Positions 4,774 through 29,356 of a stretch of 64,000 nt of DNA are shown piece after piece (the stretch's first letter is position 1; each line of letters begins with the position of its first letter). The stretch comes from Pseudomonas mosselii. GTDB taxonomy: Bacteria > Pseudomonadota > Gammaproteobacteria > Pseudomonadales > Pseudomonadaceae. The DNA lies in the NCBI RefSeq assembly GCF_019823065.1, contig NZ_CP081966.1:2325501-2389500 (forward strand), given 5' to 3'. The notes below the pieces were generated by a model. The model saw nothing but the letters and a program-made list of their open reading frames with translations, searched no databases and was not told the DNA's origin. A program made the translations under genes and the position numbers.

Positions 4774-6939
4774 TCAGAAGCTGTACTTGGCCGTCAGCAT
4801 CAGGTTGCGCGGATCGCCGAAGGTATCGCCGCCATAGTTCACCGACTTGGAGATCGACGAGTAGTATTTCCTGTCGAACACGTTGTTGGCGTTGAGCTGC
4901 AGGTCCAGGTGCTGGGTGACCGCGTAGCCGGCCATCAGGTCGGTGACGGCGTAGGCGCCCTGCTCGAGGCGATAGCTGCTGCCGTCGGCCACGGTGAAGT
5001 CGTTGTACATGCGGCTTTGCCAGGTAACGCCGCCACCGACCCGCAGTTTCTCCAGCGGGCCCTGGAAGCGGTAGGTGGTGAACAGCTTCAACTGGTGCTG
5101 CGGCGTGTCGGATTCGAACGGCTTGTTGACGTTTTGCGGGTTCTTGGCGTCCTTGACCCTGTGCACACGGGCATAGGTGTAGCCGGCGCCAATCTGCCAC
5201 TGCTCGGTCAGCGCGCCCTGCAGCTCGAAGTCGATCCCCTGGCTGCGCACCTCGCCTGAGGCTTCGTAGCAGGCGAACTGGCCGGCCCGGCACAGGCTCT
5301 TGTCCACCTCGACCGCGCGGTTCTGCTGGTCGATACGGAACACCGCGAGGCTGGCGTTGAGCGCGCCGTCGAAGTACTCGCCCTTGATGCCCACTTCGTA
5401 GTTCTTGCCTTCGATCGGTCGCACCGGCGTGCCGCTGGGGTCTTTGTTGTCCTGAGGCTGGAAGATGTCGGTGTAGCTGGTGTACAGCGAGTGGTGCTCG
5501 TCCAGCTCGTAGATCAGGCCGGCATAGCGGGTGGCGTTGCGGGTCACCTTGTAGTCGCCCTCGTTGCTGCCGCGCTGGTCGTAGTCGTACCAGTCCAGGC
5601 GCCCGCCGAGGATCAGCTTGAGCGGGTCGGCCAGGCTCAGGCGGGTGGTGGTGTACACGCCTTCCTGGTTGATCAGGTAGCGGCTGCTGCCAGTGTGCAG
5701 GAAGTCCGGTTTGCCGCCGTCGATGGGGTAGTCCAGGTCGTAGGGGCTGTAGTTGCGCTCGGTCATGTCGTAGATGCGCTTGCTGGCACCGACCACCAGC
5801 TCGTGGGTGCGGCCGAAGGCCTCGAACGGGCCGCTGGCGAAGGTGTCCAGGCCCAGCTGGTTCTCGTCGTGGGCCGACTGGTAGACCGTGCGGCTCAGCG
5901 GCTTGGCCAGGTCCCAGCGCGATTGGTACGAGCCGCGGAACAGCGCGTTCTGTTCGCTGTAGATGGCGTTGACCTGCAGCTTCCAGTCATTGGCCAGGTG
6001 CTGGCGCAGCTCGGCGAACAGGGTGTTGATCTCCTGGTCCTTGACCTCCCAGTCGGTGGCCGGGTTGTACGAGCGTGGCAGGTCCTGGTGGTGGCCGTTG
6101 AGGTCGGTGGGGATCGCGCCCCAGAACACGTTGGTCTTGTCCTTCTGGTGGGACAGGCCGAGGGTCAAGGTGGTGTCCTCGCCCAGGTCGGTCTCGGTGA
6201 TCGCATAGAACAGTCCGTGGTCTTCCTGCTGCCCATCACGGAAGCCGTTGGCGTCGCGGTACGAGGCCACCACGCGGCCGCGCAGTGTGCCGCTGTCGTT
6301 GAGCGGGCTGGAGGCGTCGAGTTCGCCGCGGTAGTTGTCCCAGCTGCCGGCGGCGCCGGTGAGCGTGACCTTCTGTTCCGCCAGCGGGCGCTTGCGCACC
6401 AGGTTGATGGCCGCCGACGGCGTGCCGGAACCGGTGACCAGGCCGGTGGCGCCGCGCACCACCTCGACCCGGTCGAACATCGCCAAGTTGGGCTGGGCGC
6501 CGACCACCCAGCCGGTGTACGCGCTGGGGATGCCGTCGTACATGACGTTGTCGACGTCGAAACCGCGGGCCTTGTAGGTCTGCCGGCCCGGACCGTTGGA
6601 CTGGTTGAGGAACAGCCCCGGCGTGTACCGGGCCACGTCGTTGATACTGGTCATGCCCTGGTCGTCCATGCGCTGGCGGGTGATCACGGTCACCGCCTGG
6701 GGCGTTTCGCGCATGGTCAACGGCAGCTTGGTGGCGGTGGCCATGGAACCAGTGGTGTACGACTTCGACCCCTCGGTGGTGCTGCCCAGGCTGCTGTCGT
6801 TGATGGCCGTGGCGCCCAGCTCGATCACGGCCGGCGCTTGTTCCTCGGCCAGCGCGGGAGTGAGGGTTGCCATGCAGATGGCCATGGCCAACAGGTTGCG
6901 GGTGGGCGTGAAGCGGTGAGGGGAGATGTGCGGTGACAT
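4774..6939 (-). CDS. TonB-dependent siderophore receptor
   Basis: A 721-residue outer-membrane receptor of the FhuA/FpvA type. It has an N-terminal signal peptide (LLAMAICMATLTPALA), a plug domain (TPQAVTVITRQRMDDQG ... VEVVRGATGLVTGSGTPSA) and a 22-strand barrel ending in the aromatic C-terminus KYSF recognised by the BAM machinery. There is no extended N-terminal signalling domain, so no FecI/FecR-type trans-envelope signalling is expected. It should import a ferric siderophore with TonB-ExbBD. The ligand cannot be read from sequence. A Fur-like box lies just upstream of the start. The gene converges on the ABC importer operon. Confidence 0.92.
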   Translation of the reverse strand: MSPHISPHRFTPTRNLLAMAICMATLTPALAEEQAPAVIELGATAINDSSLGSTTEGSKSYTTGSMATATKLPLTMRETPQAVTVITRQRMDDQGMTSINDVARYTPGLFLNQSNGPGRQTYKARGFDVDNVMYDGIPSAYTGWVVGAQPNLAMFDRVEVVRGATGLVTGSGTPSAAINLVRKRPLAEQKVTLTGAAGSWDNYRGELDASSPLNDSGTLRGRVVASYRDANGFRDGQQEDHGLFYAITETDLGEDTTLTLGLSHQKDKTNVFWGAIPTDLNGHHQDLPRSYNPATDWEVKDQEINTLFAELRQHLANDWKLQVNAIYSEQNALFRGSYQSRWDLAKPLSRTVYQSAHDENQLGLDTFASGPFEAFGRTHELVVGASKRIYDMTERNYSPYDLDYPIDGGKPDFLHTGSSRYLINQEGVYTTTRLSLADPLKLILGGRLDWYDYDQRGSNEGDYKVTRNATRYAGLIYELDEHHSLYTSYTDIFQPQDNKDPSGTPVRPIEGKNYEVGIKGEYFDGALNASLAVFRIDQQNRAVEVDKSLCRAGQFACYEASGEVRSQGIDFELQGALTEQWQIGAGYTYARVHRVKDAKNPQNVNKPFESDTPQHQLKLFTTYRFQGPLEKLRVGGGVTWQSRMYNDFTVADGSSYRLEQGAYAVTDLMAGYAVTQHLDLQLNANNVFDRKYYSSISKSVNYGGDTFGDPRNLMLTAKYSF

Positions 6940-11981: not shown

Positions 11982-15152
<3,171 letters not shown>

Positions 15153-15163
15153 CGCTATCGCAA

Positions 15164-15272
15164 GGAGCGGCCTTGTGTCGCGAATGGGCTGCGAAGCAGC
15201 CCCCAATGAACCATGCAACAATTGCGTGACCTGGGGCCGCTTTGCGGCCCTTTCGCGACACAAGGCCGCTCC
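15164..15272. repeat. GAGCGGCCTTG-armed intergenic repeat between czcA and the DoxX gene
   Basis: 21-bp perfect arms GGAGCGGCCTTGTGTCGCGAA (first 20 shown in effect; 15164-15184) and their complement (15252-15272) surround an inner GGGCTGC/GCAGCCC hairpin and a GGGGCCGCTTTGCGGCCC hairpin. The same organisation recurs at 53877-53997, with a deleted version at 33932-33967. The element lies between convergent genes and ends on the stop codon of the DoxX gene, so it may act as a bidirectional terminator. Confidence 0.85.
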
Positions 15273-15769
15273 TACAGGTACCGGCGCAGCCAGTGATCCA
15301 GGCTCAACCTTCCAGCCCCTTTCAACAGCAGCGGCAGCAACGCCACCAGGTAGATCAACGGTAGCTTGAAGTTGCCAAAACCCTGGTCGGTGATCGCATA
15401 ACCCCGCCCCAATTCCGCCAGGCTCGACCACTGGCTCGGCCAGTGCACGGTGGCAATCGCCACCACCGTCACCACCATCAGCACTGCCGAGGCCAGACGG
15501 GTGCCGAGCCCCAGCAGCAGGAGCAGCGGACAGATCAATTCGGCCCACATCGACAGCTGCCAGTTGAGACCCACCGGCAACAGGTTGAACGGGAATGGAA
15601 AACTGCTTTGCAGGTCGGCGAACCAGTTGGTGCCGTTGAACTTCTCCAGGCCCGATTCGAAGAACTCCCAGGCCAGGAACAGGCGCAACGGCAGGTCGGC
15701 GCTCCAGTTGCCGGTGTGGTCGAGGGCGTTGAACAGCTTCCAGTCAGTGAACAGTGGCAGGGCTTTCAT
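15272..15769 (-). CDS. DoxX-family membrane protein, HvfX-like (copper-RiPP maturation type)
   Basis: A 165-residue protein with about four membrane segments (roughly 26-42, 70-88, 92-108 and 134-152). Distinctive motifs are FESGLEKF (37-44), FPFPFNLLP (57-65) and [14 protein letters not shown]. They match the DoxX subgroup often encoded with HvfA/B/C and bufferin-type operons rather than the sulfur-oxidation DoxX. The ATG at 15769 is chosen, as a longer frame would need TTG. Here it stands alone, convergent with czcCBA and about 11 kb from the EGKCG/MNIO locus at 26.1-28.3 kb, so a functional link with either is inference. The stop codon lies at the end of a repeat arm. Confidence 0.7.
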
Positions 15770-15897
15770 GAACAGGCATCCCGGTGTAGGCGGCAACGGC
15801 GGGCTGCCGTCGCGCTGTCGTGGCCGGGAGTGTGTGGTGGCGGGGTATCGACAGTGTGTCGGGGGTGGTGGGTTTATGTATCGCTGTGTAGCGATCC

Positions 15898-25040: not shown

Positions 25041-25404
25041 ACAGGTCGGGGCGGGTGCTATCTATCGAGGATGCACCGAAGTTCATGCGCTCGTGTCTCT
25101 AATTTCAGCAGAGACGAGTCATGGACAACAACGAGCCGCAAGTGCTTCGCGCGCCAACAGTAACCGGGCACGAAACGTTCCAGGGCGCCCGCTCGCGCTT
25201 GGCGCTGGAAGCCGGCGAGATGGCAACGCCACGGCACGGCCCTGAGTGTGTGCAGTATCCTTGGACTATGCTCTGGTCAGGTGTGGGACATGCCCGGTTA
25301 CTTTTGCCGCGAGCAGGCGCCTGGCCAGTTGGTTTAGGCTCCACGCCGGATCTTTCTCCCTGATCCGCAGTCTTTAGGTTTATAGAGAAAACAAGGAGAT
25401 GCGC
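25041..25404. other. Intergenic region without a confident gene
   Basis: This 364-bp stretch between polB and the DUF4174 gene holds one plus-strand open frame (25121-25363, 80 codons) with only a weak ribosome site and no recognisable protein features. The final 25 bases carry AAGGAG (25393-25398), which serves the DUF4174 start. I see no repeat, RNA or terminator that I could defend. Confidence 0.4.
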
Positions 25405-25971
25405 ATGCTCGTTCGGTCACTGACCCTCGCTACCCTGTTCGCCTTGGCTAGCCCGCTGTTTGCCGCAGACAGCGATGCACCGTTGGCCAAGGAACTGGGC
25501 AAGGCACGGCCACTGGTGGTCATTGCCCCGAGTTCGGCCGACCCGACCCTGCGCGGCCTGGAAGAGGCGTTGAAAGACTCCGCCACCCAGGCCGGATTCA
25601 AGGAGCGCAGCCTGGTGCTGTACAGCGTCGCCAACATGATGGGCAAGCGCGAGGACAAGAACCTCGAGCAGCAGACCACCATGGCCCTGATCCGTGAGCT
25701 CAAGCTGGGCGCGAGCAAGGGCACCAAGGTGATCCTGGTGGGCAAGGACGGCGAGCGCCACATGCTCAAGGACGACGACAGCGGCGAGAAGCTCGACCCG
25801 CAGGTGATCTTCAAGGCGGTCGACGAGCTGCCGGCCAGCGAGAAGGCGGTCACCGCTCCCGAACCCGTCGCAGCCGCACCTGCCGAGCCCAAGGCCAAGG
25901 ACAGCAAGACCAAGGATGCCAAGGCCAAGCCCGCCAAACCTGCAGCGCCGCCCAAGCCGCTGGAGGACTGA
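25405..25971 (+). CDS. DUF4174-like exported protein with Lys/Ala/Pro tail
   Basis: A 188-residue protein with a signal peptide (SLTLATLFALASPLFA) and a thioredoxin-like alpha/beta domain of the DUF4174 kind (RPLVVIAPSSADPTLRGLEE ... TKVILVGKDGERHMLKDD). The last 45 residues are a low-complexity KAKDSKTKDAKAKPAKPAAP-type tail. AAGGAG at 25393-25398 abuts an ATG at 25399 but is well spaced for the ATG at 25405, which is chosen. Function unknown. A hairpin terminator follows, so it is transcribed separately from the downstream RiPP locus. Confidence 0.7.
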   Translation: MLVRSLTLATLFALASPLFAADSDAPLAKELGKARPLVVIAPSSADPTLRGLEEALKDSATQAGFKERSLVLYSVANMMGKREDKNLEQQTTMALIRELKLGASKGTKVILVGKDGERHMLKDDDSGEKLDPQVIFKAVDELPASEKAVTAPEPVAAAPAEPKAKDSKTKDAKAKPAKPAAPPKPLED

Positions 25972-25981
25972 CCGCTCTGTC

Positions 25982-26009
25982 ACGGCCCTCTGCGCAACCA
26001 GAGGGCCGT
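25982..26009 (+). terminator. Hairpin terminator after the DUF4174 gene
   Basis: ACGGCCCTCT (25982-25991) pairs perfectly with AGAGGGCCGT (26000-26009) across an 8-nt loop, 10 bp after the stop. The T-run is short (TTCAT), so termination may be partial. Confidence 0.65.
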
Positions 26010-26138
26010 TCATGTATCACTGTGTATCTGCGCTTCGCCGCGACCCATTGGCATACAAAATATCGCCTGCCTCGATACATCAGCGACACACCGCTGCGGC
26101 TCAATGGCTCCACTTTCCAACCACAGTGGAGCGACACC

Positions 26139-26615
26139 ATGAAAACGACCCGTCAAACCCTCGGCCTGCTCGGCGCCACTTTGCTAGGCGGTATGGTTCT
26201 GGGCAACAGTGCCTTCGCCGTAGAACCCCTGGCCCAAGGCTACCAGCTGGCCTCGGCCAAGACCCCGGGCGAAGGCAAGTGCGGTGCCGGTGGCAAGGCC
26301 ACGCAGAGCGAGGGCAAGTGCGGCGAAGGCAAGTGTGGCGCCAGCGCCAAGGCCGGAGCCGAGGGCAAGTGCGGTGAGGGCAAGTGTGGCGACGCCTCGT
26401 TCGCCCGCACTGACAGCAACCGCGACGGCAAGGTCTCCCGCGAGGAGTTCCTGGCCGTGGCCAAGGACAGGGCGGCAGACTTCGACAAGATCGACCGCAA
26501 TCACGACGGCTTCATCTCCGAGCAGGAGGCCCACGATCACCTGGCGGCGATCTACAAGGCCAACGGCAAGGCCATGCCCGACGGGCTGTTCAGCCATCTG
26601 ACCGGCCAGTCCTGA
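26139..26615 (+). CDS. HvfA-like RiPP precursor: signal peptide, five EGKCG motifs, EF-hand pair
   Basis: A 158-residue protein in three parts. Residues 1-27 are a Sec signal (LGLLGATLLGGMVLGNSAFA). Residues 41-84 are a Gly/Lys/Cys-rich stretch with five EGKCG units (Cys at 48, 61, 66, 78, 83). Residues 90-135 form two canonical EF-hand loops: D92-x-N94-x-D96-G-x-V-S-x-x-E103 and D119-x-N121-x-D123-G-x-I-S-x-x-E130. EGKCG cysteines in HvfA-type precursors are known to be oxidised by an MNIO (DUF692) enzyme to thiooxazole-type copper ligands, and an MNIO plus HvfC partner follow directly. GGAG at 26128-26131 supports the ATG. The EF-hand domain in the precursor is unusual. Modification and copper binding are inferred. 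Confidence 0.85.
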   Translation: MKTTRQTLGLLGATLLGGMVLGNSAFAVEPLAQGYQLASAKTPGEGKCGAGGKATQSEGKCGEGKCGASAKAGAEGKCGEGKCGDASFARTDSNRDGKVSREEFLAVAKDRAADFDKIDRNHDGFISEQEAHDHLAAIYKANGKAMPDGLFSHLTGQS

Positions 26616-26623
26616 AGCGCCTC

Positions 26624-26675
26624 GCGGGGCCAGCCCGCTTCCACGATGTCATGTGTGGGAGCGGGCTGGCCCCGC
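26624..26675. repeat. REP-like hairpin between precursor and MNIO genes
   Basis: Arms 26624-26644 (GCGGGGCCAGCCCGCTTCCAC) and 26655-26675 are complementary except for one G-T pair, with a 10-nt loop. Its core resembles the repeat at 10663-10724. It sits 8 bp after the precursor stop and 33 bp before the MNIO start. In the RNA it could stabilise the precursor message or attenuate read-through into the enzymes. Confidence 0.8.
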
Positions 26676-26708
26676 GCTGCCGTTCAACGCCCCAGAGCGC
26701 CTGCAATC

Positions 26709-27542
26709 ATGCCCCAACCCAAATTGCACACCGGCCTCGGCCTGCGCCGTGGCCTGCTGCCCGACTTGCTGACGATGGAGGCGGGCGCGGTGGACTTCCT
26801 AGAGTGCGCCCCGGAAAACTGGATCGGCGTCGGCGGCGCCTTCGGCCAGGGCCTGGCGCGCCTGGCCGAGCGTTTTCCCATCGCCTGCCACGGCCTGTCG
26901 CTGTCACTGGGCGGCACCGCGCCGCTGGATCGCGGCTTTCTCGAGCGCACCCGACAGTTCCTCGACCACCACCAGGTACGGATGTACAGCGAGCACCTGA
27001 GCTACTGCAGCGACGATGGCCACCTCTACGACCTGATGCCGATCCCGTTCACCGAAGAGGCCGTCCACCATGTGTCCGCACGCATCCGCCAGGCCCAGGA
27101 CATGCTTGGTCGGCGCATCGCGGTGGAGAACATCAGCTACTACGCCGCGCCGTACCAGGCGATGCCCGAGCTGGACTTCGTCCGCGCCGTGCTCGACGAG
27201 GCCGACTGCGACCTGCTGCTGGACGTGAACAACGTTTTCGTCAATGCCTGCAACCATCGCTACGATGCCCGTGCCTTCCTCGCTGGCATACCCCGTGAAC
27301 GGGTGGTGGGCATGCATGTGGCCGGTCATTACGACGAGGCCCCGGACCTGAAGGTCGACACCCACGGCGCGCCGGTCAAGGAGGACGTCTGGGCGCTGTT
27401 CGCCGACGCCTGTCGGCGCTTTGGGGCGCAGCCAACCGTGCTCGAGCGCGACTTCAACTACCCGCCGCTGGCCGAACTGCTGGCCGAGACGGCGCGTATC
27501 CGCAGCCTGCAATATGCCCACGGAGTGCCCGGCCATGGCTGA
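26709..27542 (+). CDS. Multinuclear non-haem iron oxidase (MNIO, DUF692), HvfB-like
   Basis: A 277-residue TIM-barrel enzyme with the full ligand set of the DUF692 family: H61 (CHGLSLSLG), H96 (YSEHLS), E140 (VENISYY), the [10 protein letters not shown] segment (D172/N174), H203 and H207 (MHVAGH), D217 and H219 (VDTHG) and E246 (LERDFN). MNIOs bind two or three irons and oxidise cysteine side chains in peptide precursors. The ATG at 26709 is chosen because it begins the conserved region. It overlaps the next gene by 8 nt. The expected substrate is the EGKCG protein encoded just upstream. Confidence 0.9.
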
Positions 27543-28335
27543 GATCCTGCGCACCCAGCAATTCACCTTGGCGCGCCACCTGCGCGACCCGGCCGCCAAT
27601 CCGCCGCCGCCCGGCATCGAGGCACGGCGCCTGAAGGTCTATCGCGAGCTGTTCCATGGCGCCATCGAAGGACTGCTGGCCGGCAGCTTCCCAGTGCTGC
27701 GCCGTACCTTGGGCGATCAGCGCTGGCATGCGCGGGTGCGCGATTTCTACGCCCATTACCGCAGTCAGACACCGCTGTTCACCGAGGTTGCCGCGGCGTT
27801 CATCGACTACCTGCAGGGCATCGAGCCCGATACCCCTTGGCAGCTGGAACTGGCGCACTATGAATGGATCGAGGCGCAGCTGTACCTGAGCGACGCCGAG
27901 GACCCGCCGCACGACCCGGACGGCGACCTGCTCGACGGCGAGCCACTGTTGTCGTGCGTGGCGCGGGTGCTGGCCTACCGTTGGCCGGTGGAACGCATCG
28001 GCCCGGAGTACCAGCCAGGCGAGGCGCCAGCGCAACCCACCCTGTTGCTGGTGTACCGCGACGCCGACCTGCAGGTGCGTTTCGCCCGCCTGGCGCCGCT
28101 GGCCTGGCAATTGTTGGTGGGCCTGCCGGGCAGCGGGCGCGAGCGCCTGCGCGCGTTGGGCGAGCAGCACCAGCAGGCGGGCCTGGAGCTGCTGCGCCAG
28201 TTGCGCGGGCAGGGCATCATCGTCGGCACCCGCCGAGGCAACAGGGGGGCTGTCAGGCCACTGGAATCAGTGGATCGGCCGCCGCCAGCGCCGTCGCCCG
28301 ATCCGCGGCCGGCGGATAGATCCACACCGAGTTGA
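27535..28335 (+). CDS. HvfC-like MNIO partner protein (DUF2063)
   Basis: A 266-residue protein. The N-terminal 90 residues are the DUF2063 helical domain ([20 protein letters not shown], then [20 protein letters not shown]), and the remainder is a winged-helix-like region. In studied systems the DUF2063 partner recruits the precursor leader and is needed by the MNIO. The ATG at 27535 overlaps the MNIO stop. The last 83 bp (28253-28335) overlap the 3' end of the opposing chimeric gene, giving a Pro/Asp-rich tail beyond the conserved domain, so the natural stop may have been lost. Confidence 0.85.
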
Positions 28336-29356
28336 TCTGCTGCTTGAGCTGCTTGGCCTCGGCCGTGTCCGTCGGTGGCGAGACGGTGCGCTCCCAACCC
28401 TCGGTGTACACCGCGCCCCAGGCACCGAGGTCGAGGCAGGTAACATACTTGGGCTGGCTGTAGATCATCGGCGCCACGCCGATCAGCTCGGCGGCGGCGT
28501 TGTTGCCGGCGTAGCGGCCCAGGGGGATGGCGTGCTGGCAGGACATCACGGCAAAGTTGCCAACCTCGTCGCAGGCCTGCTCGGCCAGCCGCTCGACCGT
28601 CAGGCGCGGGTCGCCCAGGTGCTCGTTGAGCCACAGGTGCAGGGCCTCGAAGGCGGCGCTGTCCTCGCCCTGGGCCTTGAGCAGTTCGCTGAACTGCGCC
28701 TGGCCGCCGGGGCGCTTGAGGAACACCACCAGCTCGCGGGCCACCTGCATGGCCACCTCGCGGCCACAGTCGGCCTCGACCAGGGCCAGCGCCAGGTCGA
28801 TGCCGGCACTGACCCCGGCCGAGGTCCACACTTGGTCCTGTTGCACGAAGATCGACTCGGCGTCCACTTCGATGGCCGGGAAGCGCCGGTGCAGCGCATC
28901 GCACATCGCCCAGTGGGTGGCGGCCCGGCGTCCGTCGAGCAGCCCGGCGGCGGCCAGCAGGAAGGTGCCGCTGCACACCGAGGCGGTGCGTCGGGCGCGT
29001 TGGGCGGCCTGGGCCAGCCAGGCAACCAGCTCGGCATGATCGGGGAGGGTGCGGACGATCTCCGGCGCGCCGGGCACCACCAGGGTGTCGAAGGGTTCGC
29101 GCAACCAGGGCGCCAGTGGCTCGGTACCTACCGCCAGGCCCTCGGCGGTCGGCACCAGGCCGCCCTCGAGGCTGGCGGTGACCAGGCGGTAACCTGGCAG
29201 GCCGCGGGCGGCGCGGGCCTTGGTCGCGGCCCAGAAGACCGTCTGCGCGCCGGTGAGGTCGAGCAGGCCCATCTGCGGGTAGGCGAGGAACAGCAAGGTG
29301 CGCGACTGATCCAGGGCGTGCACGGGTGGGGTGGGGATCGGCGGGATGTCGGTCAT
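28253..29356 (-). CDS. Chimeric gene: GlxA-type regulator N-terminus fused to FAD-oxidoreductase C-terminus
   Basis: A 367-residue open frame that joins two unrelated families. Residues 20-212 are the DJ-1/PfpI-like sensor domain of GlxA regulators (SVCSGTFLLAAAGLLDG, ATHW). Residues 239-261 are only the first helices of the AraC HTH (LHLWLNEHLGD, LTVERLAEQA). From about residue 265 the sequence becomes SCQHAIPLGRYAGNNAAAE ... VTCLDLGAWGAVYTEGWER ... WIYPP, the C-terminal end of NDH-2-like NAD(P)/FAD oxidoreductases. The junction is near 28561-28579. Most of the HTH and the whole FAD/NAD-binding core of the oxidoreductase are missing, consistent with an in-frame deletion between two neighbouring genes. 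DNA binding should be lost. Probably a degraded gene. Confidence 0.75.
   Translation of the reverse strand: MTDIPPIPTPPVHALDQSRTLLFLAYPQMGLLDLTGAQTVFWAATKARAARGLPGYRLVTASLEGGLVPTAEGLAVGTEPLAPWLREPFDTLVVPGAPEIVRTLPDHAELVAWLAQAAQRARRTASVCSGTFLLAAAGLLDGRRAATHWAMCDALHRRFPAIEVDAESIFVQQDQVWTSAGVSAGIDLALALVEADCGREVAMQVARELVVFLKRPGGQAQFSELLKAQGEDSAAFEALHLWLNEHLGDPRLTVERLAEQACDEVGNFAVMSCQHAIPLGRYAGNNAAAELIGVAPMIYSQPKYVTCLDLGAWGAVYTEGWERTVSPPTDTAEAKQLKQQINSVWIYPPAADRATALAAADPLIPVA

Follow-up and report, generated by a model that had tools for sequence, protein, structure and literature searches.

An efhP-hvfB-hvfC operon of Pseudomonas mosselii and its probable place, with doxX, in a BfmR regulon

Introduction

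In fontiphorin and oxazolin the cysteines of EGKCG motifs are converted to 5-thiooxazoles (PMC12668002; PMC13097082), and thiooxazole formation has been assigned to a diiron centre of mixed valence whose assembly requires HvfC (PMC13419390). The enzyme pair FonBC modified a substrate with two repeats and not a substrate with one, and gonophorin, an EGKCG relative, binds copper (PMC12668002/PMC13097082).

Work on EfhP of Pseudomonas aeruginosa as a Ca2+-binding protein goes back to 2014 (PMC4053335). In later papers, Ca2+ binding by EfhP and a predicted signal peptide are reported (PMC9132961), the protein has four EGKCG motifs and is supposed by its authors to sense iron (PMC11559002), and it is named among a set of described chimaeras of EGKCG motifs and EF-hands (PMC12452194). 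The EfhP work found links the protein to Ca2+ and iron, not to copper (PMC9132961; PMC4053335; PMC11559002). In P. aeruginosa the efhP promoter is a binding target of the response regulator BfmR, efhP is reported to be the gene that it activates most (PMC4148453; PMC8025907), and the czcC-czcR region is bound as well (PMC8025907). That efhP adjoins genes for DUF692 and DUF2063 proteins was already in print in 2014, together with a nearby DUF4174 gene in three P. putida strains and P. entomophila (PMC4053335), and a metal or stress role for DUF692 and DUF2063 proteins has been put forward with citation of the EfhP paper (PMC8719888).

Results and discussion

The window, a stretch of 64,000 nucleotides from the Pseudomonas mosselii contig NZ_CP081966.1 (positions 2,325,501 to 2,389,500), holds on its forward strand genes for a 158-residue EfhP-type precursor of the HvfA family (26139..26615), a 277-residue HvfB-type MNIO with a DUF692 domain (26709..27542) and an HvfC partner (DUF2063, PME1; 27535..28335). 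A sequence-only reading had compared this order to that of the HvfABC systems, and all three proteins indeed exceed their NCBIfam family cut-offs: the precursor scores 54.1 bits with NF050137 (HvfA family; cut-off 19.5), HvfB 419 bits with NF003818 (cut-off 360), besides 342 bits with PF05114, and HvfC 256.6 bits with NF050145 (cut-off 142). Because the precursor scores below the cut-off of the full-length HvfA equivalog model (NF050188; 34.7 bits against 95), it is best described as an EF-hand subtype and not as HvfA proper. With an HvfB-type MNIO and an HvfC/PME1 partner adjoining a precursor that has repeated EGKCG motifs and, as judged by eye, a signal peptide for secretion, the locus falls in the Lys-Cys group of captophorins, among the HvfA-type EGKCG RiPPs.

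Alignment of HvfB to the structure 3BWW (198 bits in the first stretch) showed that the His, Asp, Glu and Asn residues of the motifs HG, EHLS, EN, DVNN, H-x3-H, DTH and ERD are kept. The earlier statement that the MNIO retains its metal ligands stands as far as intact motifs go; which of these residues bind metal is presumed. HvfC matched the structure 3DEE weakly (E 2.2e-5).

The enzyme genes overlap by 8 bp, in agreement with the earlier reading, and the overlap is confined to these two genes, since a 93-bp spacer separates the precursor gene from hvfB. This spacer holds a 32-nt inverted pair (26613..26686), whose 21-mer occurs in 13 perfect copies in the same genome, several of them as inverted pairs. 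We take it to be of the REP type, and it may set the level of the precursor mRNA above that of the enzyme mRNA. A scan of positions 25960-26720 for sigma-70 promoters and terminators gave no candidates. At the other end, a convergent gene for a DJ-1/PfpI-domain protein (28253-29356) overlaps the 3' end of hvfC by 83 bp (28253-28335).

By sequence comparison, the precursor is orthologous to EfhP, the Ca2+ sensor of P. aeruginosa. Among the homologues listed, proteins named P. aeruginosa are 64-68% identical to it over 95% of the query and carry the source names EF-hand protein or HvfA family, and the precursor, MNIO and partner of strain PA7 are 69%, 74% and 56% identical to those of the window. 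On the strength of these identities and of the EF-hands the locus is an efhP operon, and that it is a further efhP-hvfB-hvfC member of an already described type is well supported. The EfhP operon of P. aeruginosa (PA4107-PA4106-PA4105) has the same order of EGKCG and EF-hand protein, MNIO and DUF2063 protein, and this is the gene order of group II in PMC4053335. Unlike that operon, the window has a gene ahead of the precursor for a secreted DUF4174 protein (25399..25971, forward strand; PF13778, 71.6 bits), as in the P. putida and P. entomophila strains cited above. This neighbour, whose role is uncertain, adjoins the precursor in many loci of the P. putida group; it was considered as a gene of the system and dropped, as among the loci read it stands beside the precursor only in those of putida type.

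The predicted signal peptide comprises residues 1-27 (26139..26219) and was recognized by eye from a hydrophobic run and from AFA at 25-27 followed by V. It is followed by the EGKCG region, residues 45-84 (26271..26390), with five motifs at residues 45, 58, 63, 75 and 80, so that the earlier count and placing of these motifs hold; all five cysteines of the precursor lie inside them. Two canonical EF-hand loops come next, DSNRDGKVSREE at residues 92-103 (26412..26447) and DRNHDGFISEQE at residues 119-130 (26493..26528), all on the forward strand, with 40.6 bits for PF13202 against a cut-off of 25.9. As the EF-hands occupy the C-terminal half, the EGKCG run accounts for no more than the N-terminal half of the mature protein. 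Both the EF-hands and the EfhP identity had been overlooked when the precursor was read as a Cys-repeat protein only. The published chimaeras likewise consist of a signal peptide or N-terminal helix, a short EGKCG domain and two C-terminal EF-hands, and we found no difference in architecture between them and the window precursor. With such chimaeras in print (PMC12452194) and EfhP under study for years, the supposed novelty of this precursor architecture has to be given up.

A search with the precursor returned 3442 homologues at E<=0.001, and the following patterns are those of the best 120 of them. No cysteine lies outside EGKCG after residue 35 in 114 of the 120; the motif occurs in one to eight copies, mostly in doublets (2+2+2 in 41, 2+2 in 38). 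Four P. aeruginosa EfhP proteins that were read have three to five copies against five in the window precursor, whose pattern is 1+2+2, a lone first motif followed by two doublets. The H. influenzae oxazolin system HvfABC and the fontiphorin system FonABC share EGKCG repeats and an HvfB/HvfC-type pair with the window; unlike theirs, the window repeats are split by spacers, and the window precursor has two EF-hands, for which a term search of the available parts of the oxazolin and fontiphorin papers gave no mention. We predict that the two doublets are fully modified and the lone first motif less so. Since FonBC left a one-repeat substrate unmodified, the first motif may stay unmodified altogether.

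Some precursors at syntenic loci (DUF4174, precursor, hvfB, hvfC) keep the signal peptide and EGKCG motifs and have no EF-hands, for example in P. sichuanensis, P. parasichuanensis, one of two P. guariconensis and P. shirazensis. For this reason the EF-hand part would appear to be a detachable module. When 42 HvfB rows are placed on a tree, the presence of EF-hands, labelled by a loop pattern, switches five times, at least two of these forced by starred branches; row L111, for which no precursor was found, was left out of this count. Loss of the EF-hands and the varying number of EGKCG doublets provide natural variants with which each half of the protein can be probed.

The chemistry that the sequence-only reading had named for related systems is documented, 5-thiooxazoles having been reported for EGKCG relatives (PMC12668002; PMC13097082; PMC13419390). 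By analogy, thiooxazole formation on the window precursor and copper binding by it would be expected. For EF-hand chimaeras, literature searches found neither mass spectrometry of the EGKCG part nor measurements of metal binding by it, and for EfhP itself they found no copper data. As described in PMC9132961, the EfhP biochemistry was carried out on protein made in E. coli from efhP alone; if the modification is real, those data thus describe the unmodified form.

We consider it probable that, as a whole, the EGKCG cysteines are modified by HvfBC to give a periplasmic protein for a soft metal and Ca2+, under the control of BfmR and together with doxX. HvfC would present the precursor in the cytoplasm to HvfB, which, to judge from its relatives, would convert the EGKCG cysteines to 5-thiooxazoles there, and the product would be exported through Sec to the periplasm. 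There the two EF-hands would bind Ca2+, and the modified Cys tail would hold a soft metal, copper or a different one. To judge from the syntenic precursors without EF-hands, the enzyme pair would need the EGKCG run together with the signal peptide and the EPLxQGYQLA stretch. BfmR, by binding predicted from its boxes, would turn on the efhP operon together with the bfmRS genes themselves and doxX, 10 kb away.

A credible but doubtful alternative is that modified EfhP is a sensor of Ca2+ and of iron or redox state that signals, the EGKCG tail tuning the sensing, and not a copper buffer. In P. aeruginosa EfhP influences Ca2+ homeostasis as well as genes of iron uptake (PMC4053335; PMC11559002), its authors propose Fe sensing through the EGKCG cysteines (PMC11559002), and the EF-hand match is kept in nearly all genomes with a close HvfB (44/45; see below). 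Against this, EGKCG, HvfB and HvfC persist at syntenic loci that have lost the EF-hands, the range of one to eight EGKCG copies in the 120 best homologues suits a capacity better than a fixed sensor site, and the EGKCG relative gonophorin binds copper (PMC12668002/PMC13097082).

Returning to control by BfmR, the precursor promoter contains a BfmR-type direct repeat, GATACACAGTGATACA (26013..26028, reverse strand), in which the published 14-bp motif TACAA-N3-GATACA can be found by eye with one mismatch. A third GATACA half-site (26074..26079, forward strand) pairs with 26013-26018 as TGTATC-N55-GATACA. A copy of the repeat with one mismatch lies upstream of doxX (15877..15892, reverse strand), so that the window has two matches with at most one mismatch, where 100 shuffles average 0.03. 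The repeat was chosen after the window promoter had been seen; hence a search of the whole PA7 genome provides an independent test of it, whereas a search of the window's own genome includes the window itself. PA7 has three matches (control 1), which precede efhP, a PA4103-type operon with DoxX, and bfmRS. The window's own genome has six (control 1), which precede efhP (the sole perfect copy), doxX and bfmRS or lie in long open frames; these last three (2796470, 2798628 and 4167678) are probably due to chance. An older 10-mer, GATACAnnGC, was tried and set aside: it has two matches in the window, none at the efhP operon, and 18 of 100 shuffles had as many.

BfmR-type boxes are thus common to the efhP operons of the window and PA7. 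In PA7, doxX, a ferric-reductase-like gene and bfmRS directly follow the efhP operon; in the window genome, by contrast, doxX is 10 kb and bfmRS about 1.1 Mb away. This BfmRS orthologue (L184:4265-5008 and 5008-6291) has a BfmR 91% identical to that of PA7, and its bfmR gene carries a one-mismatch box. Given such a site in the precursor promoter and an orthologous BfmRS in the genome, BfmR most likely switches on the window operon, its own genes and doxX.

It is rather unlikely that BfmR has no control over the operon in this species and that the GATACA sites instead serve a different OmpR-family regulator or persist through descent alone. This idea draws on the mismatch to the published 14-mer, on the absence of the 10-mer from the precursor promoter, on the low direct-repeat counts (three against one in PA7, six against one in the own genome), on the 21 of 66 BfmR genomes without HvfB and on the second BfmR-like copies in several genomes. 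It has to face the facts that the three PA7 matches lie at promoters bound by BfmR in P. aeruginosa, according to the papers cited, and that the window species has so similar a BfmR with a box at its own gene.

The BfmR assignment was followed through 119 Pseudomonas genomes, 45 with an HvfB of at least 66% identity and 74 others. The spaced pair TGTATC-N54..57-GATACA, with overlapping pairs counted twice, had 96 forward sites in 56 of the 119 genomes against 8 for the reversed control. The 45 HvfB genomes had 76 sites (control 1), 41 of them having at least one and four none; the 74 others had 20 sites (control 7) in 15 genomes. Seventy-five of the 96 sites were listed and assigned by hand to the gene that they precede, with genes named by the look of their sequence. 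EGKCG precursors account for 41, hvfB operons for 7, formamidase-like genes followed by hvfB for 4, secreted cupin-like genes for 5 and BufA-like genes for 2, which leaves 16 with none of these. The pair was also found at EGKCG precursors unlinked to an MNIO. For precursors the count is partly circular, since the spacing had been derived from loci in genomes that were then counted; no hvfB, cupin or BufA site entered that derivation.

The spaced pair was present in 12 of 28 non-redundant upstream regions from genus loci and in 5 of 30 from named loci, and 200 shuffles of each set gave none. The GATACA half-site itself, adopted from published work on P. aeruginosa, occurred 56 times in the 28 genus-locus regions (shuffle mean 2.2, maximum 7) and 23 times in the 30 named-locus regions (shuffle mean 1.2), counts in which near relatives share descent. 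The loci of Pseudoxanthomonas, Lysobacter, Luteimonas, Arenimonas and Stenotrophomonas that were printed have no half-site. Seven genomes with HvfB only at 56-60% identity have no BfmR orthologue and also lack GATACA in the 250 bp ahead of their precursors, which speaks against a regulator other than BfmR.

The doxX gene of the window (15272..15769, reverse strand; PF07681, 86.3 bits), our proposed partner, encodes a protein 74% identical to the PA4104-type DoxX of PA7. With genome labels entered by hand, as for the distances, the BfmR tree and the site counts per group, DoxX (E<=1e-40) is present in 44 of the 45 HvfB genomes and none of the 74 others, a BfmR orthologue (at least 82% identity) in 45/45 and 21/74, and an EGKCG and EF-hand match in 44/45 and 1/74. 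In this last count EF-hands are scored by whether the precursor match extends over that part and not by family models, and G046, with a broken frame, is included. The genome G011 has a broken precursor frame and the spaced pair, yet no HvfB, DoxX or BfmR orthologue. Fisher values on these counts ignore kinship, to which a tree of BfmR DNA is a partial answer: on its 66 rows, each genome being represented by a single copy, the HvfB label switches five times, at least four of these forced by starred branches, so that the pattern does not go back to one event. This tree was used in place of one of 80 rows including 14 second copies (eight changes, five forced). The second BfmR-like genes, at 82-86% identity in several genomes, group apart on the 80-row tree.

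HvfB and BfmR lie within 6.3 kb of each other in 30 of the 45 genomes. DoxX and HvfB lie within 10 kb in 14 of 44, 11-21 kb apart in four, and more than 30 kb apart or on another contig in 26. A half-site was found within 420 bp upstream of doxX in 12 of 30 loci, weaker than at precursors; doxX may elsewhere be a later gene of an operon. In the window, doxX is convergent with a gene for an RND pump (11997-15152; ACR_tran, CzcA-like by look).

A hand count gave 26 genomes with an EGKCG and EF-hand precursor and no MNIO match in the sequence read around it, which reached about 3 kb to each side and less far at contig ends. Joint loss of EGKCG and MNIO had been supposed for P. fluorescens-like genomes, which predicts EF-hand-only proteins; two EGKCG motifs were found to be kept, and this idea was replaced by action of an HvfB encoded elsewhere. 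Such an HvfB, of at least 66% identity, is present in 25 of the 26, the exception being G011.

These findings also bear on the idea that HvfBC acts on another peptide and that EfhP keeps free thiols. Several genomes hold more than one EGKCG precursor, some unlinked to an MNIO, and direct modification data for EfhP were not found in the literature. We nevertheless regard it as very improbable: the window precursor lies directly upstream of hvfB and is the sole precursor match in its genome, and the 25 of 26 genomes just described have HvfB elsewhere.

A wider form of the preferred reading, modification of EfhP by HvfBC under BfmR, is one on which we find ourselves evenly divided. BfmRS would be the core regulator of a dispersed thiooxazole system in which one HvfBC pair serves all EGKCG precursors, linked or not, DoxX is a near-obligatory partner also where it is unlinked, and EfhP is modified and joins Ca2+ to soft-metal binding. 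If so, the switch that BfmRS provides in chronic infection would largely be one of metallophores. The regulon offers a testable cause for the very strong response of efhP to BfmR, and doxX is a named partner to include when the pathway is rebuilt. The BfmR regulon and the doxX partner proposed here for a probable EfhP-type thiooxazole operon are new, in that the literature found does not tie them together. Among the matches listed, in a search of mostly open-access papers, no paper joined BfmR with MNIO, thiooxazole or DUF692; PMC11559002 mentions BfmR control of efhP and EGKCG, and a term search of it gave neither DUF692 nor PA4106.

Some further observations concern neighbouring systems. The secreted cupin-like protein with a spaced pair upstream was seen in five Pseudomonas genomes (L220, L234, L236, L240 and L247). 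At L245 and L246 the pair lies about 95 bp upstream of a BufA-like precursor near a BufB-type MNIO. The window's own genome has a second MNIO system, of the BufABC bufferin type (L002, C1:3939337-3943122), which shares with the efhP operon an MNIO, a DUF2063-like partner and a DoxX-like gene and differs in its DUF2282-like precursor. It comprises sigma-like and anti-sigma-like genes, a BufA-like precursor, BufB, BufC and the DoxX-like gene, the small genes being named by eye.
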